Position numbers and translations under genes: made by a program. A stretch of DNA of 64,000 nt, taken from contig JACCGJ010001452.1 in assembly GCA_013407085.1 (NCBI GenBank), positions 97,050 through 161,049 on the forward strand, given 5' to 3'. This DNA is from Atriophallophorus winterbourni (lineage: Eukaryota > Platyhelminthes > Trematoda > Plagiorchiida > Microphallidae). Under the pieces are notes generated by a model. It was given only the letters and a program-made list of their open reading frames with translations. It was not told where the DNA came from and made no database searches. Every line of letters starts with the position of its first letter. Position 1 is the stretch's first letter. This document shows, one piece after another, positions 1 through 55,720 of this stretch.

Positions 1-120
1 ACCACTGTTTGAAGGCTCACTGAACCTGATCTTTTTGTCTCCACCTGACGATGGCAAACAGCCAGAAATCGGTAGTGGTGTGTAAGGAATGGGGATGTGA
101 GCAACACATTACTGTGATAA
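1..120 (+). repeat. Partial hammerhead-bearing dispersed repeat
   Basis: The segment matches 29940-30056 (shared stretches such as 'ggctcactgaacct' and 'gatgtgagcaacaca') and, inverted, the repeats at 52965-53290 and 54186-54514. It is cut by the window start, so the left end is unknown. It contains the hammerhead listed at 39-80. Confidence 0.75.
39..80 (+). ncRNA. Hammerhead ribozyme, minimal type I
   Basis: All core elements are in order. Stem I strand CTCCAC (39-44) is followed by core CTGACGA (45-51), where N7 is C, which the consensus allows. Stem II is TGGC/GCCA (52-55 with 61-64) around loop AAACA, then GAA (65-67). Stem III is the loopless ATC/GGT (68-73). The cleavage base is A74, and the second stem I strand GTGGTG follows (75-80). 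The 4-bp stem II here is fully paired and differs from that of other copies, which supports the fold. Self-cleavage is inferred, not shown. Confidence 0.72.
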
Positions 121-6326: not shown

Positions 6327-6432
6327 TTTCATTTTTTAGAAACTGAATTTAGTTCAAGAAACATAATTTTCCGAATACATGAAAAACATTTCTTAGCAAA
6401 ATATCCATTTGCATGCTTTTCCGTCATTCACA

Positions 6433-6474
6433 CCCCACGACCGGTTTCGTGCTGTTTGCACTCATCAGGTAGGG
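6433..6474 (-). ncRNA. Hammerhead ribozyme, intact-looking satellite copy
   Basis: On the minus strand the order is CCCTAC, CTGATGA, GTGC-AAACA-GCAC, GAA, ACC/GGT, then C (cleavage base, forward position 6439) and GTGGGG. Stem I has 6 pairs including one wobble, stem II has 4 Watson-Crick pairs, and stem III is 3 pairs without a loop. Beyond stem I, TTAC can pair with GTGA across a small internal loop. Confidence 0.85.
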
Positions 6475-6668
6475 ACAGTGAGATCAGGATCCGCATGCGC
6501 TTGAAACAGTGAAAGAATGGTAAACAAGGAGCGCTTGTATGTCACTGTTGGATAAGGCTGGTACGACCAATCTGTTCAAAGCATGTGTCCAAACACATGT
6601 TTAATGGAGTTCAACCCATAACCATGAAACAAAATATTCATTTGCATGCTTTTCCGTCATTCACACCC

Positions 6669-6691
6669 CACGACCGGTTTCGTGCTGTTTG
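6669..6691 (-). ncRNA. Truncated hammerhead at satellite breakpoint
   Basis: Only the 3' half survives on the minus strand: the loop, GCAC, GAA, ACC/GGT and GTGGGG. The CTGATGA core and the 5' strand of stem I are missing because unrelated sequence joins inside the stem II loop at about 6691. It cannot be active. Confidence 0.7.
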
Positions 6692-6817
6692 TTGGGACAC
6701 ATGAAAGGACTGTATATGACGAGGCCCAGAATAATTGAAAATTGATTGATCTTACAAGCGCTCCTCGTTTACCATTTTTCCACTGTTTCAAGCGCATGCG
6801 GATCCTGATCTTACTGT

Positions 6818-6859
6818 CCCTACCTGATGAGTGCAAACACCACGAAACCGGTCGTGGGG
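6818..6859 (+). ncRNA. Hammerhead ribozyme, satellite copy with one stem II mismatch
   Basis: CCCTAC, CTGATGA, GTGC-AAACA-CCAC, GAA, ACC/GGT, C6853 (cleavage base), GTGGGG. The inner pair of stem II is lost (C opposite C), leaving 3 pairs; everything else matches the intact copies. Confidence 0.8.
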
Positions 6860-7050
6860 TGTGAATGACGGAAAAGCATGCAAATGAATATTTTGTTTCA
6901 TGGTTATGGGTTTAACCCCATTTAACATGTGTTTGGACACATGCTTTGAACAGTTTGGTCGTACCAGCCTTATCAAACAGTGGCATACAAGCGCTCCTTG
7001 TTTACCATTCTTCCACTGTTTCAAGCGCATGCGGATCCTGATCTTACTGT

Positions 7051-7092
7051 CCCTACCTGATGAGTGCAAACACCACGAAACCGGTCTTGAAG
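7051..7092 (+). ncRNA. Hammerhead ribozyme, decayed satellite copy
   Basis: The core CTGATGA, GAA and ACC/GGT-C remain, but the 3' strand of stem I reads TTGAAG instead of GTGGGG, so stem I is broken. Stem II carries the same mismatch as the previous unit. Probably inactive. Confidence 0.7.
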
Positions 7093-7282
7093 TGTGAATG
7101 ACGGAAAAGCATGCAAATGAATATTTTGTTTCATGGTTATGGGTTTAACCCCATTTAACATGTGTTTGGACACATGCTTTGAACAGGTTGGTCGTACCAG
7201 CTTATCCAACAGTGTCATACAAGCGCTCCTTGTTCACCATTCTTCCACTGTTTCAAGCGCATGCGGATCCTGATCTTACTGT

Positions 7283-7324
7283 CCCTACCTGATGAGTGCA
7301 AACAGCACGAAACCGGTCGTGGGG
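7283..7324 (+). ncRNA. Hammerhead ribozyme, intact-looking satellite copy
   Basis: Stem I is CCCTAC (7283-7288) with GTGGGG (7319-7324). The core is CTGATGA (7289-7295). Stem II is GTGC/GCAC around AAACA (7296-7308). GAA (7309-7311) and the loopless stem III ACC/GGT (7312-7317) follow, then cleavage base C7318. An outer helix CTTAC/GTGAA can extend stem I across an internal loop of TGT on one side and T on the other. Confidence 0.88.
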
Positions 7325-7512
7325 TGTGAATGACGGAAAAGCATGCAAATGAATATTTTGTTTCATGGTTATGGGTTTAACCCCATTTAACATGTGTTGG
7401 ACACATGCTTTGAACAGGTTGGTCGTACCAGCCTTATCAAACAGTGACATACAAGCGCTCCTTGTTACATTCTACCAATGTTCAAGCGCATGGCGGATCC
7501 TGATCTTACCGT

Positions 7513-7554
7513 CCCTACCTGATGAGTGCAAACAGCACGAAACCGGTCGTGGGG
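7513..7554 (+). ncRNA. Hammerhead ribozyme, intact-looking satellite copy
   Basis: Identical in all core and helix positions to the copy at 7283-7324, 230 bp upstream. The predicted cleavage base is C7548. Cleavage at this site and the previous one would release a monomer-length RNA. Confidence 0.88.
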
Positions 7555-7689
7555 TGTGAATGACGGAAAAGCATGCAAATGAATATTTTGTTTCATGGTT
7601 ATGGGTTTAACCCCATTTAACATGTGTTTGGACACATGCTTTGAACAGGTTGATCGTACCAGCCTTATCCAACAGTGGCATACAAGCCC

Positions 7690-8620
7690 TCTTTGTTTTT
7701 TAGCAAGGTTTTGCATTTGTGCTGCAATTGAATGTTGATTATCGTTTTTTTAATCGAATGGACATGCAATATACATTCACTCTCCCACCTTACTCTTAAG
7801 AGACTTTTCACAACTTTCACTCCAGGCACACACCTGTGCCTCGTACAATACATTTCTGGTATGGGCAGGTATTTTCAGGCAGACCTTGCAAATTATCTGG
7901 TAACTCGTTACAAATTAATCGAATATTGCTCAGTAATACTTGTATCAATTGAAGTCATTAGTGAACGCGTAGACCACCCTTTTATTAGTTCAACAAATTA
8001 AAAACAGCGATTCGTATATATTTCGATGCTACTAACAAGAATAATAGACACCAACAATACACAAACGTCAACTGTACCGGATTGTACAAATGATGTGAGC
8101 CAAAAGTGCTCAAACGTTCCAAATTAACGCATTAATTTCAGCAATTGCTGAGAAGATAGACCGTGAACTTATTAATGCCAATGTATAAAATGACAAATAT
8201 GATAGTGAACAATTGTCTCTGTTTTCTTCAAACAACACGTGCAAAAACTTGTGGAATGTAATGAATGTCAAGCAATATGACTTAGTTCAATAAAACAAAA
8301 AATGGATGTACAAGTTGATTGAACAATAACGAAAATGTATACAGAAAGCACAGGAAGATAACAACTGAGTTGAATTAAGAAAAATCAAATTGCTTAATTA
8401 GAAAATAGGAATGAATTTTTCATATAATCATCGTCATTCACAATACTGATAGTTATACTGAATTTGATATGTTGTGAGCATACTATACACGCATGTTTAC
8501 AAGGTGCGTAGCAAATACCTGTAATTAATCTAAGATCATTGCTATATTAAAGATTATGCTTCAATGATAGACAATATTCACGTTGATCTTTCTTCGACCG
8601 ATACAGATCTTATATGGAAT
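7690..8620. other. AT-rich stretch without recognised gene
   Basis: After the last satellite unit the sequence is AT-rich. It holds only short frames with no family signature. No repeat shared with the rest of the window was noticed. Confidence 0.6.
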
Positions 8621-10570
8621 AGATTAGACAGAAGAATCGGAGGAGGAGCCCGAACGCTCTTAGCAAATGGTGTCAAATTCCAAGATTTTGACATCAAAAC
8701 GGCCATATTTGGCATGTAGTTGGTCTGCTCAATCGTCACTGGCGGTATGATATGTTTTGGATTAGGCTTCCTATACAGGCCACCCGGTGCATCTGAGCAG
8801 GATTAACAGGAAGATGGAAACATGTTTACCAGGTTGCTTGTAATACCACCAGGAGTCTATTTAATGGGCAATTTCAATATATCGGGTATTGAGCGGTACA
8901 CTTAAGCAACCTCTAATAAAAATTACCATGTCTATGTCAATTGAGTGATACTCTAGTACCTTTTATCAGAACGCAAGTGAGAAACTAGCAGAGAGATGGT
9001 CCTCACCAGCCAAACTGGACAAAGTTCCGTCAAACTTTATTAAACTACAAAACTTCTCTCATCTGGACTCACAATTGATTAAAGTGATATGTCCCCATGC
9101 ATGGGTCGGCTTATTCTCTATTCTCGGGCTTTAATAGCCATCAGTAAATATTCGATGTAGTACACCAGACTTTTATTCATTTTTACGTCTCAAGGAACTT
9201 CTTATCTCTTTTACAACAATCAAATTACAATTCATCGAGAATCAAGAAAGAATGGCCCTGAACAGTGCTTCGAAGACCAAGTCTTTGAACAGTCTGACGA
9301 GATCTCGATATAATCTAAGTAAACATGAAATTTCTACACTTGTGTTCAACGATGATGGTAGGGAATCATCAACATCAGACTCTTCAGCAATAACTAAGCT
9401 TTTTCTGAACTATTTTAGTCAGTCATTCAATACCAGCGTATACCCTGTACTCCCAAATCAAAATAATAATTCAATGTGTATGGATTCCATCTCCTTTAGT
9501 TTACAAGAAGTTAGCTCAATGTGTCGGCGAAGCAAAGCTTCTTACAAGCCTGATATTGTGGGCTTTCTTCCAGCAATCTTGCAACTAAATACGGATGATA
9601 TACCATTAATTTTATTAAACTTGTTTAATCTTTCTATTAAATCTGGTATTTTTCCTCTCGAATGGAAACATTCTGTCATTGTACCTCGGTTTAAAACAGG
9701 GAATTTGCACATCGTCACTAATTATCGCCCAATTAATCACACACCTTTTCTCTCTAGGCTATTCGAAAAGTTGATCAAGAACGCATTAATAGCTTACTTG
9801 GGCCCAAACGCTTTCTCTCCATTTCAACATGGTTTTTTAAATCAAAAGTCCTGCATTACCTGTCAGCTGGAATATTTGGACCATATAACGGCCTCCATAG
9901 ATCATGGATCAGCTGTACTGACAGTTTTCTTAGACATTACCCAAGCATTTGATAAGGTTCCTCATTCTCTTCTTCTTCGAAAATTATCATCACTTGGGAT
10001 TTCCGGATCCCTATTTAATTGGTTCTGCTCATATCTTTTTGATCGCACCTTCTCCGTTTCCGTTAATGGCATATCCTCTGAAACACAACCTATACCGAGT
10101 GGAGTCATTCAGGGTAGCGTACTAGGTCCCCTCCTTTTTCTTATATATATTAATGATGTGCAGGATTTCGTAAAAAACTCGAAGCTTTTTATCTTTGCGG
10201 ATGATATTAAACTTGTTTTAGTTTTTCCAGCCATAGAGGTATCACAGGCTATAGACTCTCTCAACGACGATCTTTCAACACTTTCAAGTTGGGGCTCACA
10301 ATGGGGTTTAGAATTCTCAGCTCTGAAGACGCAATTCATGGGTATACGCTGCTCAATACCCCCCCGGTAGTATTATTCTCAACAATACACCACTCGCACC
10401 TTCAAACGAAATCAAAGACTTAGGATTTAGATATTCTTCATCTCTCAATTTCAACGAACAAGTAAGATTCCTCATAGCAAGAGCTAGACAGAATTTTGGT
10501 TTGATAAATCAAAAATTCCTCCTTCGTGAAAGTAGACTAAGTCTATATAAAATGAAAGTATTACCAGCGA
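8620..10570 (+). mobile_element. CR1-like LINE, decayed endonuclease and near-open RT
   Basis: The endonuclease relic (8620-8900) shows RRIGGGART, a FLYRPPG-like block and MGNFNISGIE in broken frames. The RT is open from 9252 to 10370 (372 codons), with NYRPINHTP, FLDITQAFDKVPH, IQGSVLGPLLFLIYINDV and FADDIKL. The frame then shifts and continues as DLGFRYSSSLNFNEQVRFLI up to about 10570. There it is cut by the minus-strand Gypsy copy. It shares its pattern with the minus-strand relic at 291-1485. Confidence 0.82.
9252..10370 (+). pseudogene. LINE reverse transcriptase open frame
   Basis: The 372-codon frame covers the RT fingers and palm. KASYKPDIVGFLP replaces the usual KS-GPDG block near residue 95. 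PPxxF-type and QHGFL blocks follow, then LDITQAFDKV (motif A) near residue 227 and SGVIQGSVLGPLLF near residue 280. The catalytic FADD lies near residue 316. There is no proper start: the first Met lies in the linker, and upstream coding sequence is broken. The element's frame shifts after 10370. It is a relic of an ORF2 polyprotein. Confidence 0.8.
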
Positions 10571-14794: not shown

Positions 14795-15160
14795 TTCAGC
14801 GTTTACCATTTTCATACATTTTGTATCGTTGTTTTACTAAACTGCAACCGCATAAAATTTGAATATATACTTTTCCGTCCAACCGCGCGTCGTTCGTTCT
14901 GCCTCGTTGTGCTAGTCGACTGTTCTGTGCTGACTGTTCTGTGCTGACTGTTCTGTGTTGACTGTTCTAACGGAGTCGAGCTCCTTTTCAGCTGTCTCCG
15001 GACCTTTCTCATCACTCGTTGTCCGTCTTGGATTTATTCGGAGCGGTTTATTTTGTGTGTAGTGGAATATACTTCTTCACTGTCCGTGAGTTTTCATTGT
15101 CATATTTTGTTTATGATTTATCGTGTTGTTTGTATTATACATTGGTATTTTTCCGCTACA
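14795..15160 (+). repeat. 5' LTR
   Basis: It ends in CGCTACA and is nearly identical to 19267-19610. Its first bases read TTCAGCG where the 3' LTR has the canonical TGTAGCG. A 14-bp unit (ctgttctgtgctga) is repeated about three times at 14930-14970 in both LTRs. The 5' LTR holds about 22 bp more than the 3' LTR near its end (around 15107-15135). It is the expected promoter of the element. Confidence 0.93.
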
Positions 15161-15217: not shown

Positions 15218-16072
15218 ATGGAATCTGACGTCTCTGCCAACTCTCTCAACCTTAACGCTGTTGTTGTCCCTTTTCCTAATTTTGACGGTACTAATCCGCG
15301 TGCATGGTTTCGTCTGATGGAAAACACATTTCGGCTCAGAGGAATTACGAAACAGGACACGATGTATCTGTATGCTTCGAATTCTCTCCCCACTGCGATT
15401 GTCGCAGAGGTTTTTGATGTAATTGATGTCATGCCTCCTGAAACCCCTTACGATCTACTCAAGGCCGCTGTTTTGAAGCGAACCACTATATCGGAAGAGG
15501 GCAGATTGCGTCAGCTTCTCTCAAGTGTTCAGCTGGGTGATCGCACTCCCTCGCAGCTTCTTCGCCATATGCGCGCATTGGTTGGGGACTCAAAGGTCGA
15601 TGACTCTATCATTCGTCAATTATGGTTGAAATGTCTACCTGTAAGCATGGCGTCCATCCTAGCAGCCTCTGCCACCCGTTCCACGTTGGATGAGCTTGCT
15701 GATATAGCGGATAAAATCAACGAATATTACGGACATCATACCGTCCAGCAAGTTGAGACACCCAAGCCATTAATCCCCAATGAACCCTTAAAATCCACAG
15801 AAAGTCTGTCAGAACGACTATCCAGAATTGAACTCTCTATAGCAAATCTGACGCGTTATGCTGAAACCCGCACTCACTCCAATTCGAGACGACGCAGCAG
15901 TGCGCCACAACACCGCAGTACGTCACAACACCGCAGTGCGTCGCGACACCGCAATCAGATTTGTTATTTTCATCGACGTTTCGGTGACGATGCGCGTAAC
16001 TGTCGCCCCGGTTGCAAATACCCCAAGTCTGGCGCATTCTCTAAACAGGGAAACGCGAGCGCCAGCCAGTAG
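15218..16072 (+). CDS. gag: Gag, CsRn1 type, with C-H-C-C finger
   Basis: The 284-aa structural protein is expected to assemble the cytoplasmic particle and bind element RNA. The start chosen is the ATG at 15218; an upstream in-frame ATG in the leader (15053) lies inside the LTR. Residues about 20-35 carry [14 protein letters not shown], and a [14 protein letters not shown] block follows mid-protein. Near residues 225-245 an Arg/Ser/His-rich tract is built of short repeats (QHRS). The finger is C249-x2-H252-x9-C262-x3-C266, the lineage hallmark, unlike the usual CCHC knuckle. Its last codons contain the frameshift heptamer, and it stops at TAG 16070-16072. Confidence 0.92.
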
Positions 16073-19000
16073 TGGCGACGACTGTCGCTGGCCAACCCGT
16101 TAGTCGCCTCCTGTATGTCACTGATCGGAATTCTCATCAGAATTTTCTCGTCGACACCGGTGCTGAGGTGAGCGTTCTACCTCGATCTGCAGAAAAACGC
16201 CACCTTCAAGCTACAGGAATTTGTCTCCAGGCGGCTAACCAAACGAAAATTGCCACGTATGGTCAGAAGTTTCTAAACCTAGACTTCGGACTCCGCCGGC
16301 AGTTCCCTTTTCTTTTTATTATTGCCGATGTCAAACAACCAATCCTTGGTGTTGATTTTCTTGCGCAGTTTGATTTAGTTGTTGATATTAAGCGACGCCA
16401 ATTGCAAGATAAGATTACTTCACTTCACGTATCTTGTAAAACCGTTGCACTTAATTCTATCAACTTACGTGTGTGCCTTCCCGATTCTGATGAGTTCTCT
16501 TCCCTCGTCACGGATTTCCCTTCGCTGGTGCACCCCTCAACTGCAGCGACCAACCCCAAGCACCTGGTTCGACATCACATCGTCACCAAAGGACGACCAG
16601 TTTTTGCCAAGCCCCGTCGGCTCCCGCCAGACAAACTTCACGCAGCTAAAAACGAATTCCAACATATGGTAACCCTTGGCATAATTCGGCCATCCGATAG
16701 TCAATGGGCCTCGCCGCTGCATTTGGTTGCAAAGAAAAATGGCGACTGGAGACCTTGTGGTGACTATCGTGCACTCAACGCCATCACCATACCCGATCGG
16801 TACCCTATTCCACATATCCACGATTTTTCCCTGCATCTCCGTGGAAAGCAGTTTTACTCAAAATTGGATTTGGTACGGGCCTACCATCAGATACCAATGG
16901 CCGAGGAGGATATCGCCAAGACAGCTGTCATTACCCCATTTGGTCTCTTCGAATTTCTCCGAATGCCATTTGGACTTCGCAATGCAGCTCAGTCCTTCCA
17001 GCGATTTATGGACCAAATTTTTCGTGGATTAGATTTCGTTTTTGTATATATCGACGACGTCCTCATCGCCAGTACCACTGCAGAGGAGCACAAAAAACAT
17101 TTACGCGTTGTTTTTGAACGTCTCGACAATTACGGAATCACTATTAATCCCGAAAAGTGTGTCTTTGGTCAAACCAGTGTCCAATTCCTTGGTCATCAAA
17201 TCGACTCCCATGGTATTAGCCCGTTACCCGACAAAACCCAATCTATCGTGGAATATCCTTTACCCCAATCCATCAAGAGCCTTCGTCGTTTTCTTGGTGT
17301 CATCAATTATTACGGTCGGTTCATCCCCAATTGTGCTCAATTGTTACAACCCTTAACTGATTTACTACGAGGAAATCCAAAGAAACTCGTGTTGACAGCT
17401 GAAGCGGAGGCCGCTTTTGTCGCCGTGAAGAAGGAGTTGTCAACAGTTACGTCCTTGAGCCACTTGGATACCACAAACAGTGCCCGCCTTGTGCTCAAAA
17501 CAGATGCTTCTTCTGTTGCAGTGGGTGCAGTTCTACAACAGTTGATCGGCTGCGATGCTCAACCACTTTCCTTCTTTTCGAAGAAGTTGCAACCAACGCA
17601 GACGAGGTACAGTACATTCGGCAGAGAACTTCTCGCTGTGTACTTGGCGATCAAACACTTCCGGCACTTTTTGGAAGGACGTCAGTTTACCATCTATACT
17701 GATCACAAGCCCCTCGTTTATGCAGCTCGCACCTCTGCGGATCGTCACTCTCCTCGAGAAATCCGTCAGTTGGACTACATATTGCAGTTCACCGACGATA
17801 TTCGCTTTATCGATGGTAGCAGTAATGTTGTTGCTGACGCATTCTCTCGCACGGATTTACACCAAGTCAATCGACCATCTGTGGACCTACAGGATCTTGC
17901 CCGGCATCAGGAAGCTGATCCTGAATTTTCCGTCATCACAAACAACCCTTCCCTTCGATTTTCATGTTTACCCCTCCTAAACTGTGACGCTCATATCCAT
18001 TGTGACATTTCTACCGGCAAGCCGCGACCATTTGTTCCACAATCTCACCGCCGGATTATTTTTGATCACTTTCATGGATTATCCCATCCGAGCATACGCT
18101 CAACGGTACGTCTTATTACCGAACGTTTCGTATGGCACAACGTACGGAAAGATATCCGCCAATGGGCAAAACACTGTGTTACGTGTCAAAAGGGCAAGAT
18201 TCATAAGCACACCCGTGCTGCCCTTGCCACATTTCCCCAACCTGACGCGCGTTTCAAACATGTGCACCTGGACATTGTAGGTCCCTTACCGCCATCCAAG
18301 GGTTACACCTACATTTTGACGTGTGTGGATCGATTCACACGTTGGCCTGTTGCCACGCCTATGTGTGATATTTCATCAGAGACTGTTGCTCAGACGTTTG
18401 TTCATTCATGGATATCTATCTTTGGCGTTCCGGCTACTATCACCACAGACAGAGGATCTCAATTCACCTCTGCATTGTTTCGGGATGTTAGCCGAATGAT
18501 CGGATCAACACATATGTGTACGACGGCATACCACCCCGCGGCAAATGGATTAGTCGAACGGTTCCACCGTCAATTGAAAGCTTCCATCACCGCTTCCTCG
18601 TCCAGTGTGCATTGGTCTGAACGGCTACCCATCATTCTGTTGGCAATCAGGAACACGGTCAAGGAGGATGCCGGATGTTGTCCCTCGGAACTTGTTTTTG
18701 GTACCGCACTACGACTGCCTGGCGAGATGATTCTTGACTCCCGCCACACCGGTGAGCTCGATGTTTCCTCATACGCCGCGAGATTGAAGGAGCAATTCAA
18801 GTCTGTTCGTCCCGTCCCAACGCGCCCCAACAACCGTCCCGCCCAAGTTCATCTCGACCTCTCAACCTGCCCCTACGTTTTTGTTCGTGTCGACGCCGTG
18901 CGGAAGCCCCTACAGCCGCCCTACGACGGTCCCTTCAAAGTTTTGGTGCGCAAGCCGAAATATTTTGTCCTGGACAAAAACGGAACACGAGACTCCGTCA

Positions 19001-19104
19001 GCATCGACAGGTTAAAGCCAGCCTTATCGATTCCTCATATGGTCAACCCTCTTCAAATGACTCTAATGTGGTATTCCCGTCAACACCTCCGACCCAGCCA
19101 ATGA
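16045..19104 (+). CDS. pol: Pol polyprotein: protease, RT, RNase H, integrase
   Basis: The pol frame is open from 16045, overlaps gag in the -1 frame and has no ATG at its head, so it should be made as a Gag-Pol fusion. Numbered from 16072, the aspartic protease motif D28-T-G-A is followed by RT with [13 protein letters not shown] and YIDD at 326-329. RNase H has D478 (TDASS) and a YTDHKPL block. The integrase has an H-H-C-C zinc region (HGLSHPS ... CVTCQ) and catalytic D734, D793 and E829, with 35 residues between the last two. All expected catalytic residues are present and there are no stops, so it may be functional. It ends 162 bp before the 3' LTR. Confidence 0.95.
16048..16092 (+). promoter_or_regulatory. 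Programmed -1 frameshift signal
   Basis: The heptamer GGGAAAC (16048-16054) lies in gag phase as G_GGA_AAC, a classical X_XXY_YYZ site. After a 6-nt spacer a 32-nt hairpin runs 16061-16092. Its lower stem is GCCAGC/GCTGGC, with a 2-nt bulge TC and an upper stem CAGT/ACTG around a 10-nt loop. The gag stop codon lies within the hairpin. The layout is conserved in the copy at 12671-12715. Confidence 0.85.
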
Positions 19105-19266: not shown

Positions 19267-19610
19267 TGTAGCGTTTCACATTTTCATACATTTTGTATCG
19301 TTGTTTTACTAAACTGCAACCGCATAAAATTTGAATATATACTTTTCCGTCCAACCGCGCGTCGTTCGTTCTGCCTCGTTGTGCTAGTCGACTGTTCTGT
19401 GCTGACTGTTCTGTGCTGACTGTTCTGTGTTGACTGTTCTAACGGAGTCGAGCTCCTTTTCAGCTGTCTCCGGACCTTTTCTCATCACTCGTTGTCCGTC
19501 TTGGATTTATTCGGAGCGGATTATTCTGTGTGTAGTGGAATATACTTCTTCACTGTCCGTGAGTTTTCATTGTCATATTTTGTATTCTACATTGGTATTT
19601 TTCCGCTACA
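19267..19610 (+). repeat. 3' LTR
   Basis: It starts TGTAGCG and ends CGCTACA, and carries the same triplicated 14-bp unit as the 5' LTR. It is followed by GTAT, the second copy of the target-site duplication. Confidence 0.94.
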
Positions 19611-29419: not shown

Positions 29420-29875
29420 CCACTGCGAATTCTGATCCTTTTGACCCGACCTGGGTTACAGGTCACACTAAAGACAGCTAGTTTAGCAGTCAAAGCCTTC
29501 ATCTGCTTGAGCCAAGTTAGACTCTGACCACCCTTACAACACACCATTCTGAATAAGGATAGCCAGACTATCATTCTATCATATTTTATAAAAAAACAAG
29601 ATTCACCTGAAGTGAACCTAAAAACATGCTACTTTTACATGCGTTCGCATATTTATCCTACCCGTTTTCTCTTTTCGTGTTTGCTTATCCGCTTCTCTTG
29701 CTCTATGTTGCTTGGCACTTTGTTTGGCTTCAGACATGATGATGATAATGTGAGGCACGCTGGACTTAATTCGATCGCTCTAAAATCACACTGTGATGTT
29801 AATCTTCGTTTACTTCCGAAGTTGTATCTGCCGGCAGTTATGTTGAGTACGAGATCTCATTGTGTAAACTAAGCA
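29420..29875. other. No gene recognised
   Basis: Only short frames without family signature are present. The hammerhead repeat starts just after. Confidence 0.5.
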
Positions 29876-29879
29876 GATG

Positions 29880-30056
29880 TATGGGGTGTGTGAGCAACAC
29901 ACGAGTCACTATGTGATTCGTGGTTCGTTGTACGAACCCTATGCAACAGTGGCATTCAAGGCTCACTGAACCTAATCTTACTGTCTCCACCTGATGACGG
30001 TAAACAGCCAGAAACCGGTAGTGGAGTGTAATTTCGGGGGATGTGAGCAACACATC
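29880..30056 (+). repeat. Hammerhead-bearing dispersed repeat
   Basis: It carries 'gtgagcaacacac' on both sides, a 'caacagtggcattcaaggctcactgaacc'-type leader (29944-29972) and the ribozyme. It matches the monomer of the 240-bp repeat at 53009-53290 (inverted). Confidence 0.8.
29985..30026 (+). ncRNA. Hammerhead ribozyme, dispersed copy
   Basis: Stem I CTCCAC/GTGGAG is a perfect 6-bp helix (29985-29990 with 30021-30026). The core is CTGATGA (29991-29997). Stem II is CGGT/GCCA around AAACA, with one C-A mismatch and one G-T wobble. GAA, the loopless ACC/GGT and A30020 (cleavage base) follow. An outer TTAC/GTAA helix extends stem I. Confidence 0.8.
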
Positions 30057-30059
30057 ACT

Positions 30060-30330
30060 TAAGCAGATGTATCGTTTGATAACCTAAGCCATTTTTTCAA
30101 CGGCACGATTTTCAGTATGAAGTTGCGTGTACAACGCTATCGTGCGTGTTGCGCTTTACGCCCGCGAAACCTGTTCGATGTGATTTGAAAGTCTCCATTG
30201 GATTTTTATTTTTCACACCCGTTGCCGGCAAATAATTGATCGGCAACAGAATCATGTTGCTAATATGGACGTTTGCAGATTGTTGTTAGGGTCCTGAGAT
30301 TGTCATAGCCGGGGGTGGTATATGTATGAT
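30060..30330. other. No gene recognised
   Basis: Nothing is recognised between the hammerhead repeat and the next S1 copy. Confidence 0.4.
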
Positions 30331-46779: not shown

Positions 46780-47580
46780 CATATGAAACAACAAGTTTGC
46801 GTAGTTCTTAGTTGTTCTCCGAGCTGATTTCGGACGTTTCATCATCAAACTAGATGACATCATCAGCCAAACTTCTTTCGAAGCAACTGGGCGATGGGAA
46901 TCATTTGAATTCATCCGTTATGTTGCGACCTCATCTACTATGATTGGCTAGAATCTTTGCATGTTCTCGTTGTTGGCGTGTGCTTATTGGTCCGTAGACC
47001 CCATCCAATTGAATGTGCTCATTGATTGATTGTGGTGTTGAATACCACGCCTCGAGGAATTCTCGAACGTGACGAGTTCTGTCTTTGGCGATGATTTCTT
47101 TTTATCGCAATTGTATTCGTGTCCTTCTTGATCCATGTTTACCGATATTATTGATTCGTGGTCATGCTTTCTTGTAACCAGTATGTGTTCATGTCTGTCC
47201 GATATAATATTTCTCACAATCGGAACACGGGGTTATGTAAACGACGTTATTTCATTCCTCCCTAGCAAACGGGTACATGACCTTGACGAGTTGTCTTCTC
47301 AGTGTTTATGCAGGTTTGTGTGCTGCATTAATTCCGAGCGGGCGTAGGATTCTTGCGGTAGGTTGTATATAGGGGAGTGTTAATCTTACAGTGTTCGTGT
47401 TGTTCACGTGCGATTAGGTTGTTGAGTCTTTGTTGCGAATGATGAAGTTCTGTGGGTACCCGAAAGAGTTTGAATAAATATTGCTCTTCTTTCTCGACTT
47501 CGTCGATGCTACAGTGTGTTTTCAGGCGGTTGAATAGCGTTCGGACACAGCTTCGCTTATGGGTGTACGGTGCTTGCTTC
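46780..47580 (-). pseudogene. Penelope-like element, C-terminal part with GIY-YIG nuclease
   Basis: On the minus strand, fragments follow the PLE order. CVRTLFNRLKTHCSIDEVEKEEQYL and LFRVPTELHHSQQ come from the region before the nuclease. NVVYITPCSDCEKYYIGQT is the GIY-YIG core, here V-Y-I ... Y-I-G. The last stretch is RTRHVREFLEAWYSTPQSIN then GVYGPISTRQQREHAKILANHSR-stop (about 46950). Stops and shifts break the middle. A hammerhead-like motif follows the stop at 46827-46872. Confidence 0.75.
46827..46872 (-). ncRNA. Hammerhead-like motif after PLE ORF
   Basis: Core CTGATGA, a TCATC/GATGA helix in place of stem II (with unpaired bases beside the core), GAA, loopless AC/GT, cleavage base C, and a partly paired stem I (TTTGG with CGAAA). 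PLEs are known to carry such minimal ribozymes. Stem II does not stack directly on the core, so activity is doubtful. Confidence 0.45.
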
Positions 47581-49170: not shown

Positions 49171-49209
49171 GGTAACGTTTCGCTTCTGACACAGAAGCTT
49201 CGTCAGACC
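49171..49209 (-). ncRNA. Hammerhead ribozyme in PLE non-coding region
   Basis: Minus strand: GGT, CTGACGA, an extra A, stem II GCTTCTG-TGT-CAGAAGC (7 perfect pairs), GAA, loopless ACGT, cleavage base T (forward A49174), ACC. Stem I has 3 clear pairs next to the core. It lies about 300 bp after the GIY-YIG stop, as in PLEs with ribozymes in their long terminal repeats. Confidence 0.68.
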
Positions 49210-49505: not shown

Positions 49506-49901
49506 TTACCTTCGCATCTGTGCCGAGCGCCAGATTGTGGAGATTTCTGCCCAAACCACCTTATTGATCGCCTTGGCAATTTCGACCGCCTCCGCATGTA
49601 GGCGTACGCTATACGTTTTAATACCGCGTCTCAATATTTCCACATTGTCTAGATCGACGATGTGGCCCATATCTAAAACGTGCTCGGCCAAGGCGAAATC
49701 ACGAATAAGGGATTGATATTCCCTCGCATCTCGGGGCTGTCTCCGGACACGCTTTCGGTGTTCTTCGATTCTAGTATGAATTTCCCTGGAAGTCTGCCCT
49801 ATGTAAACACCCGAACAGTCTTTACAGTTGATTTTGTAGATGCTGTTCGTAACGCTAGATTGACTTACTTGACTTAATTCATTGAGTTCCTGGAGGAACA
49901 T
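49506..49901 (-). pseudogene. PLE GIY-YIG endonuclease domain
   Basis: The 131-codon frame reads SIYKINCKDCSGVYIGQTSREIHTRI, the GIY-YIG core with Y-I-G, the conserved Arg and the CxxC that typifies PLE nucleases. FALAEHVLDMGHIVDLDNVEILRRGIK, with the catalytic-type Glu, and EAVEIAKAINKVVWAEIS follow. The domain nicks target DNA in PLE retrotransposition. The upstream PLE coding part lies beyond the RTE insertion at 51920-52075, so the original ORF is split. Confidence 0.82.
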
Positions 49902-51915
49902 AGGGCCTCGACAACTTGTCTCCAGTTTGGTCTGTCCATGGCAGCTAGTTTGATGTCGTTCCAGTTAAGTCCACACTTGCGGATTTCCTCTTCACACGAG
50001 CGCCTCCAAGATAGCTTTGGGCGTCCGACCCGTCTCTTCCCGATTGGGTTCCATTCCAGAGCATGACGCGTGATGTCATCATAAGGCTTCCGCAAGGTGT
50101 GCCCAACCCATCTCCACTTTCTTCTTCTGATCTGCTGGGCGATCGAGTCCTCAGCAGCAATCTGCCACAGGTCTTGATTCCTCATCTTTTCTGGCCATTT
50201 TACCCCAATAATTCGACGAAAGCAATTATTGTGGAATGATTGCAAGCGGCCAGAAGACTTTGCTGTCACTCGCCAGGTTTCCGATCCATAGAGTGGCACG
50301 GATTTGACGTTGCTTCTGAATATACGGAGTTTCGTGCGTTTTGATAGAACCTTCGACTCCCAAATGGGTTTCAAAGCTATGAACGCGTATCTTGCTTTGC
50401 CGATTCTGGCGACTATGTCTTCGTCCGTGCCACCACTTATTGAAACAAGGCTGCCGAGGTAGACGAATTGCGTGACATCTTTAACTGCTTTACCATTGAT
50501 GGTGATTGATGGGTGCTCGTCAGTTAGCACACGGAGGACTTCTTTTTTTCGGTATTCACGCGTAGTCCTGCATATGAAACAAAGTGTGCTAGTCTATCGG
50601 TCTTTCTCTGAAGACGTTGGGGGTCACGTAATATCAAGCAGACATCATCAGCGTATTCCAGATCCTCCAAATGGTCGGATTCCTTCCAATCGATACCGTT
50701 CCTCTCACCTTTTACTGATTGTTTCATTATCCAGTCTATTACCAACAGAAAAATCATTTGGGACAACAGGCATCCATGGCGGACGCCAGTCTTAACTGCA
50801 AATGGATCGGTAAGTCTTCCGTTGTGAATTGCCTGACAGGAGGCACATTCATACAGCTGCTTTATGAGGTCCATGTACAGCAGTGGGACCCCATCGTGTG
50901 GCAAAAGCTTCCATGTGAATTCGCGGTCCACACTGTCGAAGGCTTTCTCAAAATCTATGAAGTTGAGGCAAAGAGGCGATTGCCATTCAATGCTTTGTTC
51001 AATTATTATGCGGAGGGTCGCAATTTGGTCGATACCAGACTTTTGTTTTCTGAAGCCCCGTTGCTCTGGCCGTAACATTTGATCGATAGCGTCGCGCAAA
51101 CGCAGAAGGATGATGCGCGTAAGTACTTTACTAGGGACTGAGAGCAGCATGATACCTCGCCAGTTTTCGCATAGCCTCAGATCCCCTTTCTTTGGAAGTT
51201 TGACCAAATGACCTCTCTTCCAATCGTTTGGGACCAGTCTTTCTGACCAGATTTTCTGCAGCAGAGAAAGTAACATATCAGCCGAGGTGTCCAAATCAGC
51301 CTTCAGAGCTACTGGTGGAATCCCATCTGGACCTGGTCCTTTGTCATTCTTCAGTGATTTTAAGGCAAACAGGATCTCATTTCATTTAAAACGAAATTAG
51401 ACGAATTTTTATTGCATTATTCGTTTCCAGAACACTTATATACTGTTTAATCTATGTTCTTATATTTCTTAAATTCTTCTTATATTCTTAAATTTCAATT
51501 TTTACCATCCTATGGTTGTTGTTAAGCTTGTTGCTTTTTAGACTATTAAAAACCTTGAATTACCTTGAATTTCGACCGGGGGGATCGCTGTTTACGTCCA
51601 GCAAATTTGCTGCAGGTGGGATGTCAGTGACTGAAGTAGGTGCTGGTCGATTTAGGAGTTCCTTGAAGTGCTCCATCCATCGCTTTCTTTGCGCCGATTC
51701 CTGACTGATAAGGTTACCTTCACCGTCCTTTACTATTTTGCCGTCAGGTATTTTTCTTCCTGATAGGGTTCTGGTAATGTTGTAGACGATGTTGAGGTCT
51801 CTCTTTTCTGCTGCATTTTCCGCCTCCGTTGCCAGCATTTCATAGAACCGCCTCTTGTCACTTCTGGCACTTCGTTTCACGTCTTTATTTAGGGAGCCGT
51901 ATTGTTCGATCAGTT
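49874..51915 (-). pseudogene. RTE-like LINE inserted in a PLE
   Basis: High to low: linker (51880-51560: ARSDKRRFYEMLATEAENAA, RWMEHFKELLNRPAP), an interruption by a LINE tail, then RT (51360-50524: DKGPGPDGIPP, CENWRGIMLLSVPSKVLTRI, FIDFEKAFDSVDRE, TGVRHGCLLSQMIFLLVIDW, LEYADDVCL). After a shift near 50527 the C-terminal region runs to 49874 (TQFVYLGSLVS, LYGSETW, CFRRIIGVKWPE, RRKWRWVGHTLR, WNPIGKRRVGRPKLSWRR). Loss of the second Pro in the LSP block and the two breaks make it non-functional as it stands. Confidence 0.88.
51380..51562 (+). repeat. LINE 3' tail inserted in the RTE element
   Basis: It is the inverted match of 46380-46555, ending 'ccatcctatggttgttgttaa...gctttttagac'. It splits the RTE linker from its RT. 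Confidence 0.78.
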
Positions 51916-52278
51916 GGTTTTACTGATTGGTGTCCTTACACCGCTAGATAAAGATGTATTATTCTAGAGGTGCATCAGAACCGAACGGATAGTTTTCCCT
52001 TTCTTATGAGTTACGCGTATGCCCGCTCGGTTCAAGATTCTACGTATCGCTTCAGCTGTGCATTTTACATACGGTATACAAACTGCTCTAACCGATTGCA
52101 CTCAAATTTCTTTGAAGCATGATTTCTCCATCTTCTATATTCACGTACTTTATCTTCTGTAGAAATTTAGTTGCGGAATTTATCGACTATTCAAGGATTC
52201 TAGCCAATCACAGTAAATGAGGTGGCAACGCAGCAGATAAATTCGAATAATGCCCATCACCCAGTTGTTTCGAAACAA

Positions 52279-52325
52279 GTTTGGCTGATGATTTCCTCTA
52301 GTTTGATGACGAAACGTCTGCAATC
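52279..52325 (+). ncRNA. Hammerhead-like motif after PLE end (unit 1)
   Basis: Core CTGATGA (52285-52291), then a partly pairing TCCTC/GATGA arm, GAA (52311-52313), loopless ACGT (52314-52317) and C52318. It lies 59 nt after the PLE stop, like the motif at 46827-46872. Weak helices; probably decayed. Confidence 0.4.
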
Positions 52326-53008
52326 AACCGTACCAGCCCGGAGAACACATATGACCTACAATACCGTAACTGAGCTACAAGACTATTTCACAACAAGCTT
52401 TCCTCGGCATTCCACTTGACAACGTCTATATTAATTAAACGCTCAAAGAATATCCCTATAACTTGGAATTCATTAATAATACTATATGAAATTAAAGTGA
52501 CAACTCTAATACATGTGATATCGAACAAAGGTAACAGGAAAATCAGATGATTCGCATAAAAATTTATGTAGCGACTATCTTTGCATCGTTTAGCTTTTTA
52601 TTCACCACTTTACCCTGCCGTCGTAATTTTTAATACTTCGGTATTGTAGATGTTCGTTGTATAATTTAACCGGGTCTTGATACCTCTACGTTGTCCAGAC
52701 CCAAACTTCGTTATATATCCAACATGTACAGTCAATGTTGAATCATTTCAATATACCTTTTGCTAATATTTTCGCATTCATCAATCCCAGAGCGAAGTGC
52801 CCTAGAAACCTGTCCTACGCACAAACCAGCACAATCCTGATTCTATTGTTAATATTCGTGACCATCGCTAACGACTTGTGGCTTACTGCAACCGAACAGA
52901 TAGTAGTCCACGTAACAAAGGTTGGCTCAAGTTTTTGTTTATGAGTTTTAATACGCATTGGCGCAAAGTATACAATGATGTATGTTGCTCACATCCCCCG
53001 CACTTACA

Positions 53009-53050
53009 CACCACTATCGGTTTCTGGCTGTTTGCCGTCATCAGGTGGAG
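53009..53050 (-). ncRNA. Hammerhead ribozyme, 240-bp repeat (unit 1, first)
   Basis: Minus strand: CTCCAC, CTGATGA, CGGC-AAACA-GCCA, GAA, ACC/GAT (one mismatch in stem III), A, GTGGTG. An outer CTTAC/GTAAG helix extends stem I. Probably weakened by the stem III change. Confidence 0.7.
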
Positions 53051-53248
53051 ACAGTAAGATTAGGTTCAGTGAGCATTGAAACAGTGGATAAATGGTAAAA
53101 AAGGTAATAATTGAATGCCACTGTTACATCGGGTTTGTACGACGAACGACGATGTTCAAACACAGAATCATAAAGTGATTCTTGGTCAAGCACTCAAAGC
53201 GCTTATGAATAACCAAAGTGATGTGTTGCTCACATCCCCGTACTTACA

Positions 53249-53290
53249 CACCACTACCGGTTTCTGGCTGTTTGCCGTCATCAGGTGGAG
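53249..53290 (-). ncRNA. Hammerhead ribozyme, 240-bp repeat (unit 1, second)
   Basis: As the copy 240 bp to the left, but stem III is ACC/GGT, fully paired. The predicted cleavage base is A (forward T53255). The duplication breakpoint lies 3 bp beyond its stem I strand. Confidence 0.78.
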
Positions 53291-53499
53291 ACAGGTATAC
53301 AAACTGCTCTAACCGATTGCACTCAAATTTCTTTGCAGCATGATTTCTCCATCTTCTATATTCACGTCCTTTATCTTCTGTAGAAATTTAGTTGCGGAAT
53401 TTATCGAATATTCAAGGATTCTAGCCAATCACAGTAAATGAGGTGGCAACGCAGCAGATAAATTCGAACAATGCCCATCACCCAGTTGTTTCGAAACAA

Positions 53500-53546
53500 G
53501 TTTGGCTGATGATTTCCTCTAGTTTGATGACGAAACGTCTGCAATC
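53500..53546 (+). ncRNA. Hammerhead-like motif after PLE end (unit 2)
   Basis: Duplicate of the motif at 52279-52325, with core CTGATGA at 53506-53512. Confidence 0.4.
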
Positions 53547-54229
53547 AACCGTACCAGCCCGGAGAACACATATGACCTACAATACCGTAACTGAGCTACA
53601 AGACTATTTCACAACAAGCTTTCCTCGGCATTCCACTTGACAACGTCTATATTAATTAAACGCTCAAAGAATATCCCTATAACTTGGAATTCATTAATAA
53701 TACTATATGAAATTAAAGTGACAACTCTAATACATGTGATATCGAACAAAGGTAACAGGAAAATCAGATGATTCGCATAAAAATTTATGTAGCGACTATC
53801 TTTGCATCGTTTAGCTTTTTATTCACCACTTTACCCTGCCGTCGTAATTTTTAATACTTCGGTATTGTAGATGTTCGTTGTATAATTTAACCGGGTCTTG
53901 ATACCTCTACGTTGTCCAGACCCAAACTTCGTTATATATCCAACATGTACAGTCAATGTTGAATCATTTCAATATACCTTTTGCTAATATTTTCGCATTC
54001 ATCAATCCCAGAGCGAAGTGCCCTAGAAACCTGTCCTACGCACAAACCAGCACAATCCTGATTCTATTGTTAATATTCGTGACCATCGCTAACGACTTGT
54101 GGCTTACTGCAACCGAACAGATAGTAGTCCACGTAACAAAGGTTGGCTCAAGTTTTTGTTTATGAGTTTTAATACGCATTGGCGCAAAGTATACAATGAT
54201 GTATGTTGCTCACATCCCCCGCACTTACA

Positions 54230-54271
54230 CACCACTATCGGTTTCTGGCTGTTTGCCGTCATCAGGTGGAG
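54230..54271 (-). ncRNA. Hammerhead ribozyme, 240-bp repeat (unit 2, first)
   Basis: Duplicate of 53009-53050, with the same stem III mismatch. Confidence 0.7.
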
Positions 54272-54469
54272 ACAGTAAGATTAGGTTCAGTGAGCATTGA
54301 AACAGTGGATAAATGGTAAAAAAGGTAATAATTGAATGCCACTGTTACATCGGGTTTGTACGACGAACGACGATGTTCAAACACAGAATCATAAAGTGAT
54401 TCTTGGTCAAGCACTCAAAGCGCTTATGAATAACCAAAGTGATGTGTTGCTCACATCCCCGTACTTACA

Positions 54470-54511
54470 CACCACTACCGGTTTCTGGCTGTTTGCCGTC
54501 ATCAGGTGGAG
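54470..54511 (-). ncRNA. Hammerhead ribozyme, 240-bp repeat (unit 2, second)
   Basis: Duplicate of 53249-53290, with all core positions and stem III intact. Confidence 0.78.
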
Positions 54512-54519
54512 ACAGTAAG

Positions 54520-55720
54520 ATTAGTTTCAGTGAGCATTCAAGTATAACTTTGTATACAAAGCTATGTTTTACAACTTCATCGATAGTTATTTCACTTCAA
54601 TTATTTGGCATCACAATGTTCATCGGATGAACGCGATCTTATAAGCCGTCGAGTAGCATTGATTTCGGGTAATTGGCCTGAAGCCGGTTACGGAGTGTAA
54701 TTTCAATGGGGCTGAGTTGAAAATTGATCGGTATTCAACTAATAACTAGAGTTGTTTTTGTACGATCCATTCAACCCAACGCTAACCGTTTTGGTCATGC
54801 TCATTTGCGCCACATTGCTGACTGACCTTGACCGCGTTCACTTGCCCTAAAATCATGTGAATATGCCCCGCACAAATGGGTCAAATGAGTTAATACCCGT
54901 GAGCCGTTCAGTTATGAAGTTGACTACAGGTTGTGGATGCGGTACAACTTAGCAATCGATTGGAATATGTTTGGGACCGATCGTGTATTCATAATGCAAA
55001 GGAATTTGTGTGCAATCGGTTAGAGTACAACTTAATTATGTTCCCGTTCTGGCCATTACCTCAGCTTTGACTAGGCCTCGATGCCATATGCGAAACGTTA
55101 CCACAGAACTGCTTTTACCGATTGTTTTTAATTTGAGGCCTTCGTGCCACATGATTGTATTTATTGGCTAAATCGTTCTCAGTTGAGTTAAACGATTAAT
55201 ATGCTTCTAACGATTGTGGTCACGCGAAACACACACCAGACGCATCTGCTGGTGCTAATACAGTACTGTACATTTTGTTGATCGATAAGTGCCTCTCATC
55301 TATGGACATAAATGAGTTGCCAGCATAATTGATTTTGTTATCAGATTTGTGCAAACAGAATTTGAATCAAAGTTGGAGTCCGGAATAAGGTACAAAAAGC
55401 CATTGAAAATGTCAGTGGTTGCCGAATCACGAACATTATATCGCATAATTGTTTTTTATACCTCTTATTGAACGAATATTTACTATGATATGGTAATTGT
55501 GAAGCTATGTGCTTTTTGGTGACCATAAATTATTCTTGAATCTTCTTGAATTAATCAGGAATAATAGCAAAACATACTCTGCCTGCAATCTCAGACGCAA
55601 ATGCTATCCAATCCAACAAGAAAATCTGCTTATAATTAACGGGCAACAGAATACGACAAAAATACCGTTTTGTCATGTCTAAATTTCGACATATAGTGGA
55701 TCGTGAGCAGTTACACCAGG
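54520..55720. other. No gene; PLE and dispersed-repeat scraps
   Basis: 54950-55030 resembles the PLE RT scrap at 49095-49160. 55087-55100 keeps a ribozyme-like 'gcgaaacgttacc'. 55445-55545 matches 41450-41535. Confidence 0.55.

Follow-up and report, generated by a model that had tools for sequence, protein, structure and literature searches.

The question raised by this locus is what kind of genetic element repeats a hammerhead ribozyme motif in tandem in the genome of the trematode Atriophallophorus winterbourni, and by which route such an element is inserted into the DNA. The locus lies in a stretch of 64,000 nucleotides of contig JACCGJ010001452.1, which was analysed as a whole and is referred to here as the window. 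In the first-pass annotation, the repeats were described as a satellite at 6370-7690 with a period of about 232 bp, in which every unit carries a minimal hammerhead. The array actually spans 6397-7698 and is described here as a composite insertion of a putative retrozyme, assigned to subfamily A, with two divergent arms (<- ->). An inverted arm of 1.27 units (6397-6691, minus strand), with its outer 3' end 42 nt beyond the cleavage position, is followed by a junction spacer (6692-6749), a part that varies among copies, and by a tandem arm of 4.1 units (6750-7697, plus strand), whose outer 3' end falls at unit position 148. The period of about 232 bp was borne out by TRF on 6753-7698 (period 232, 4.1 copies, 95% matches) and by unit spacings of 233, 232 and 230 bp in the tandem arm. 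The inverted arm aligns to a direct unit in two pieces with 96-97% identity. The GC content is 0.42-0.45 across five units, and there is no long coding frame, the longest stop-to-stop stretch within 6397-7698 having 118 codons.

The motifs that had been named for the units are all present, namely CTGATGA, stem II formed by GTGC and GCAC around the loop AAACA, GAAA, the cleavage base C and the CCCTAC/GTGGGG stem I. Searching the window with a 30-base hammerhead core (one free position, up to 3 mismatches tolerated) gave 5 mismatch-free matches over both strands and none in 100 shuffles. Six extended hammerheads lie in the array, and three of them are intact as judged by the core, NUH, at least 5 of 6 stem I pairs and 4 stem II pairs, so that the claim of an intact ribozyme in every unit was wrong. 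The intact copies are the two plus-strand copies and the one minus-strand copy recognized earlier: 7289 (7267-7340, predicted cleavage after 7318), 7519 (7497-7570, predicted cleavage after 7548) and 6468 (6417-6490, predicted cleavage after 6439 when read on the minus strand). The copy near 6691 (6650-6713, minus strand) is truncated within stem II and has lost its 5' half. Copy 6824 (6802-6875, plus strand, predicted cleavage after 6853) is one stem II pair short owing to a C.C mismatch, and copy 7057 (7035-7108, plus strand, cleavage position after 7086) is damaged in, and fails the checks for, both stems I and II. The sole unit between two intact hammerheads is 7319-7548 (plus strand), with a predicted self-cleaved RNA of 230 nt. 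To judge from the sequence, unit-length processing of an array transcript would be a natural expectation for this one unit.

The proposed search with an Rfam model ended just short of the threshold. With Hammerhead_1 (RF00163), three copies reached 32.9 bits and a fourth 25.2, which leaves the best score 1.1 bits below the gathering cut-off of 34. Taken literally, the refuting condition of a missing hit above threshold thus counts against the first-pass annotation, although the E-value is 5.8e-6 over the 1501 bases searched. No hammerhead match was returned by Rfam for the whole window at the gathering cut-off. The type I hammerhead motif in the units is supported by helices that are kept through compensating changes, and as a sequence motif it is considered real.

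Contrary to the first-pass annotation, the hammerhead is not minimal. Stem I of A consists of an inner helix (CCCUAC/GUGGGG), an internal loop (UGU/U) and an outer helix, which had also been predicted and is present as UUAC/GUGA. The internal loop and the loop AAACA, as loop 1-loop 2 candidates, are largely conserved. The proposed loopless ACC/GGU stem III is found as well, but it is sterically possible between two units only. Stem III of A reads A + CCGG + U, and a lone unit offers just one base pair around a palindromic tetraloop; since ACCGGU cannot close within one unit, the ribozyme would require two. ViennaRNA, whose energies leave out non-standard core contacts, placed the single-unit hammerhead at -7.7 kcal/mol, or at -13.2 when the stem III pair is omitted, whereas the best fold of one unit was a different one at -15.8. 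For two strands, the dimeric hammerhead with six stem III pairs was itself the predicted optimum, at -35.7 kcal/mol. The A hammerhead is predicted to act as a dimer across two units. A single-pair stem III with a palindromic tetraloop, and hence dimeric action, has been described for the satellite retrozymes of newts and axolotl (HHR_Amex1) in the available part of PMC7229834; by description, these vertebrate units are 330-350 bp long, against 230-240 bp here.

The second subfamily, B, has 72-76% identity to A at the level of units, and retrozyme units of 230-240 bp are found. In B, stem II is CGGC/GCCA, the outer helix is UUAC/GUAA and cleavage is predicted after GGUA, whereas A would be cleaved after GGUC. 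B copies are present in the window at 45 and 29991 on the plus strand and at 53044, 53280, 54265 and 54504 on the minus strand. The segment 1-116 (plus strand) is the right end of a divergent composite that starts in another locus, L033. A copy at 29884-30059 (plus strand) runs across the cleavage site and lies between 13-bp direct repeats (29870-29882 and 30060-30072). A tandem copy of 1.4 units at 54197-54541 (minus strand) is flanked by AAGTATA (7 bp), and a second copy of this element is found at 52976-53294 (minus strand). The latter lies within a 1222-bp tandem duplication (52073-53294 and 53294-54515, 99.7% identical), either genuine or an assembly effect, into which the B copies 53044, 53280, 54265 and 54504 fall. 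In each unit of the duplication, a retrozyme B copy is accompanied by a CTGATGA...GAAACGTC motif.

Copies of the family are dispersed in the genome. A covariance model built from 11 copies (alignment A1) was applied to 20 stretches of about 10 kb, one per contig and picked by contig number, thus not strictly random (198,852 bases). It gave 29 matches at E<=0.1 and 27 at E<=0.01, in 11 of the 20 stretches. Scaled to 537,331,230 bases, this corresponds to about 73,000 A/B copies (Poisson range about 48,000-106,000), most of them decayed. Local alignment in the same stretches gave 34 segments of score >=60. In the loci L012-L018, no hammerhead match was obtained with Rfam even at E<=0.1, compared with 5 using the A1 model, which together with the result for the window indicates that Rfam misses A/B copies. 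All hammerhead checks are passed by 4 of 30 aligned copies. The first stem II pair is non-standard in 16 of the 30, mostly B, so B hammerheads may cleave poorly. At 8643-9288 of L024 (minus strand), a B-like, an A and a B hammerhead are lined up in the same orientation, spaced 302 and 270 bp, which means that A and B are mixed within one cluster. In L033, runs of N (8564-8650 and 9500-9563) lie beside B arrays and suggest that these arrays are incomplete in the assembly, or that stretches were withheld. An exact 30-base core pattern had no match in viral contigs, a loose regex scan of the loci L001-L008 gave none either, and among the papers listed by literature searches, no title or beginning of an abstract described the A/B family.

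Covariation was compared with 500 shuffles in three alignments. In A1 (11 rows), 90.2% of cells were paired against 82.7% after shuffling and covariation was 0.262 against 0.142, values reached by 0 of 500 shuffles. In the alignment of the 29 sampled matches (A2), which was made to the model and is hence biased toward its structure, 75.4% were paired against 65.1%, and cells changed on both sides numbered 49 against 21.6 (0 of 500). A MAFFT alignment (A4) was made from the 33 matches scoring 45 bits or more, less three in the window (23-96, 52993-53066 and 53233-53305), and the 30 aligned copies gave 82.1% against 74.7% paired and 63 against 28.9 both-side cells (0 of 500); with partners slid by 1-3 columns, 25-48% were paired. 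The number of covarying pairs was reached by 50, 48 and 11 of 500 shuffles in A1, A2 and A4, respectively, and the number of pair types in A4 by 129 of 500. The distal helix of stem I is GCAUGC/GCAUGC in A and UGAGCA/UGCUCA in B, with both sides changing at three adjacent pairs. This mostly reflects a single difference between A and B, so that events are fewer than the cell counts suggest, and a large part of the A/B covariation may go back to one event inherited by descent. The hammerhead helices are supported as being maintained through compensating changes, with pair counts a weaker signal than cell counts. A conserved rod across the whole unit was also considered: whole units folded modestly better than shuffles (z -1.43 and -2.18), which is weak support, and RNAalifold run unaided on A4 gave 3 pairs.

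These structural features bear on whether A and B are terminal pieces (pseudo-LTRs) of a Penelope-like element (PLE) rather than an independent retrozyme, a reading that is considered rather unlikely. PLEs carry tandem type I hammerheads with a short stem III that are possibly dimeric, according to the available part of PMC7761336, and the window contains a weak GIY-YIG match (PF01541, 19.3 bits, cut-off 22.6) about 300 bp from another hammerhead-like motif. However, blastn with the A unit gave nothing near this other motif, which has ACGU as stem III. Neither an RT nor a GIY-YIG domain was found in the 10 frames scanned out of 65 (at least 100 codons, within 1 kb of 59 A/B segments); the domains in those 10 include RRM, tRNA synthetase and gag-type protease. 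In addition, the outer helix is retained by A and B. The minimal hammerheads of PLEs and Terminons resemble A/B in their short stem III and in dimeric cleavage, predicted for A/B, but as described in the available part of PMC7761336 they occur in coding elements and are without helix III or loop-loop contacts, whereas A/B keep the outer helix and the internal loop. A minimal PLE hammerhead was rejected for A/B on the basis of the conserved outer helix.

Several other elements were observed near the retrozyme copies. The weak GIY-YIG match lies at 49506-49961 (minus strand), with the hammerhead-like motif at 49206 (minus strand) and LINE-like frames just upstream; match and motif probably derive from the 3' part of a Penelope-like element that is now broken. 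Hammerhead-like CTGATGA...GAAACGTC motifs with almost no stem III occur at 46866 (minus strand), 52285 (plus strand) and 53506 (plus strand), and presumably represent a type that has been described from Penelope-like elements. On either side of a Ty3/gypsy-like frame (16045-19104) lie identical 14-bp tandem repeats (GACTGTTCTGTGCT, 14918-14968 and 19390-19440), within 368-bp repeats that are probably LTRs. Among the 120 best relatives listed for an LTR-element frame, the highest-placed named ones come from flatworms (Sparganum, Dicrocoelium and Hymenolepis, further down Trichobilharzia, Schistosoma and Clonorchis), in keeping with a trematode, and a protein search with a non-TE frame had no match. 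In L030, a frame with a tRNA-synthetase domain (7476-7862, minus strand) lies 38 bp from a B segment, and this B copy is probably in or beside a gene.

Hammerheads of another family are also present in this genome. Rfam gave 32 hammerhead matches, 27 of them above the cut-off, and eight loci (L001-L008) were examined. All eight have the stem III ACUCGAGU and belong to a family other than A/B. The first-pass annotation had proposed that the repeat family differs from known ones; this holds with respect to the stem III of these eight loci, but the kind of element has already been described (PMC7229834, available part). By eye, a tRNA-like head with a GGTTCGA-type word was seen upstream of at least one copy in 7 of the 8 loci, and a common tail of about 75 nt follows. 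These loci appear to form a SINE-like family resembling the Smalpha elements of schistosomes. Their type I hammerheads are full-score, and at L001, L002 and L005 (3 of the 8) a second, inverted SINE-like hammerhead copy lies close by.

That A/B would itself be a SINE of the Smalpha type, driven by a pol III promoter of its own, is regarded as scarcely credible. Hammerhead SINE-like elements do occur in this genome and are known from schistosomes (PMC8490949, available part), and a box A-like word with 1 mismatch is found on the minus strand of one A unit. No tRNA-like head was seen in A or B units, and their stem III is ACCGGU versus ACUCGAGU in the SINE-like family. The best box B match carries 3 mismatches in all five units. 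This test is a rough one: its best match had 0 mismatches in L001 and 1 in L008, yet 4 in both L002 and L005 despite GGTTCGA words there, so that it missed 2 of 4 positive controls. As far as the available part of PMC8490949 describes them, the Smalpha/Sjalpha and W-elements of schistosomes are, like A/B, flatworm repeats with type I hammerheads, and some schistosome hammerhead repeats cleave in vitro; Smalpha is SINE-like, unlike the array in the window, and resembles by description the L001-L008 family.

The ends of the copies give indications of how they were inserted. The array is flanked by TTAGCAA at 6393-6399, overlapping the arm by 3 bases, and at 7700-7706 (both plus strand), a putative target-site duplication. 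End repeats were tested in 27 copies, using local-alignment limits, ends within 4 bp and 6000 random placements. Five of the 27 have repeats of 7-13 bp at P<0.01, with about 0.3 expected: the array (TTAGCAA, P 0.008), 54197-54541 (AAGTATA, P 0.008), L011 5093-5644 (GGACGTAC, P 0.0025), L010 5140-5219 (8 bp, P 0.0025) and 29884-30059 (TAAGCAGATGTAT, P 0.0002), the limits of the last copy having been fixed after the repeat was seen. The other 22 showed no end repeat at P<0.01. In a wider test with 70-base windows per end, the 7-bp match of the array was equalled by 23% of random placements and the 8 bp of L011 by 7%. By this measure the match of the array is not unusual, and the case for end repeats therefore rests on their lying directly at the ends. 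In the array and in L011, the repeat encloses the inverted and the direct arm, so the composite would be one insertion.

A systematic local-alignment scan of 300,754 bases yielded 59 segments and none in four shuffled loci. When segments of score >=130 are merged (26 in all), the 3' end falls 33-52 nt beyond the cleavage site in 13, with about 2 expected if uniform; two of these 13 are one duplicated copy, and among the remaining 13 one is truncated by the end of its locus. The 5' ends are more scattered (at most 6 of 26 per 20-nt bin). Considering all 50 merged segments, the 3' end lies at 20-59 in 24. This clustering could be inflated by homology fading beyond the conserved stem in old copies. 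Closer copies are less affected by this, and their 3' ends lie 42 (array), 36 (54 kb), 39 (29.9 kb), 42 (outer end, window 1-116) and 43 nt (L011) past cleavage.

Neighbours in opposite orientation and at most 100 bp apart form 10 pairs, of which 9 are divergent and 1 is convergent (L010). Two further divergent composites fall outside this rule: in L030 one arm is below the score limit, and in the composite running from L033 into 1-116 of the window a gap of a kilobase, bounded by N at either end, separates the arms. In the 11 divergent composites, one outer end lies at 33-52 in 8 and at 14-26 in 3, and the range of the other is 129-218 in 10 of them, L009 being the exception (45-84). The junction sequences of ten composites were examined and vary from copy to copy. 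A heritable inverted master element, considered in view of a short spacer word common to the window and L009, was set aside as the ten junctions differ. Independent origin of the inversions is preferred, and shared descent of some composites is possible.

The array could also be an ordinary satellite grown by unequal exchange or DNA rolling circle, with the hammerhead as a relic. The tandem layout, the 96-97% identity of neighbouring units and the failure of at least one hammerhead check in 26 of the 30 aligned copies would agree with this. However, short copies are dispersed over 11 of the 20 sampled stretches without long arrays, end repeats flank entire composites, compensating changes preserve the helices and the inversions are divergent, and this origin is judged distinctly improbable. 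The designation as a satellite is not supported, as the repeat is a dispersed element and the array is flanked by a 7-bp direct repeat.

The best explanation, which is held to be probable, is that the A/B repeat is a non-autonomous flatworm non-LTR retrozyme, with dimeric self-cleavage, circle formation and target-primed, partly twin-primed copying by the reverse transcriptase (RT) of another element. Neighbouring units of a multi-unit transcript would pair via the palindrome ACCGGU into a double hammerhead, cleavage after GGUC would release RNAs of about 230 nt, and a host ligase would close these into circles. Copying by the presumed RT of another element would begin just beyond the extended stem I rod, about 40 nt past the cleavage position, with the circle or a multimer that stayed uncleaved as template and a nicked target as the site, in a putative order of priming. 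Tandem arrays would arise when the RT circles the template more than once, and the divergent inversion when priming takes place a second time, on the other strand of the target. As inserts cross the cleavage site, the template would have been either a closed circle or a multimer that had escaped cleavage, rather than a linear monomer left by cleavage. Repeats at the ends, a favoured 3' end, 5' ends that vary and inversions that are nearly always divergent together characterise target-primed reverse transcription with twin priming, known for L1. The end repeats, clustered 3' ends and divergent inversions found here would fit target-primed, sometimes twin-primed copying. As a tentative and rather doubtful extension, the extended stem I rod could be the signal at which the RT starts, about 40 nt past the cleavage position of the re-closed circle, with the RT going round one or more times and a second primer entering the large unpaired loop (unit positions about 130-180).

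The same life cycle has been proposed as a hypothesis in PMC7229834, the available part of which leaves the priming between target-primed and small-RNA-primed, by LINEs or PLEs. No paper joining a hammerhead ribozyme with twin priming was found in a literature search. The non-LTR retrozyme kind is already known, and what is new here is the evidence on insertion, namely the end repeats, clustered 3' ends and divergent inversions. A/B were compared with published retrozymes by description. According to the available part of PMC7229834, metazoan non-LTR retrozymes have, like A/B, a type I hammerhead, tandem units of 150-450 bp from dimers upward (here 230-240), a GC content below 50% and target-site duplications of more than 4 bp where present; they have also been reported in platyhelminths, with species-specific sequences. 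In contrast to these elements as described there, A/B have a 3' end preferred about 40 nt past cleavage and divergent inversions, and form two subfamilies set apart by compensating changes. In addition, A/B have a dimer-type stem III in an invertebrate, whereas most invertebrate retrozymes cleave efficiently and vertebrate ones require dimers (PMC7229834, available part).

With the A/B family, the dimer-type hammerhead of amphibians has a counterpart in a flatworm. The route by which animal retrozymes return to the genome is left open in the available part of PMC7229834. A/B copies are estimated to number in the tens of thousands, some of them carry end repeats, and their inversions can be counted, so that the route would be decidable from DNA alone. 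If the reading of the stem I rod as a start signal is true, one structure would cut the RNA, circularise it and mark it for target-primed copying, and the preferred 3' ends, the tandem arrays and the one-way inversions would be explained jointly.
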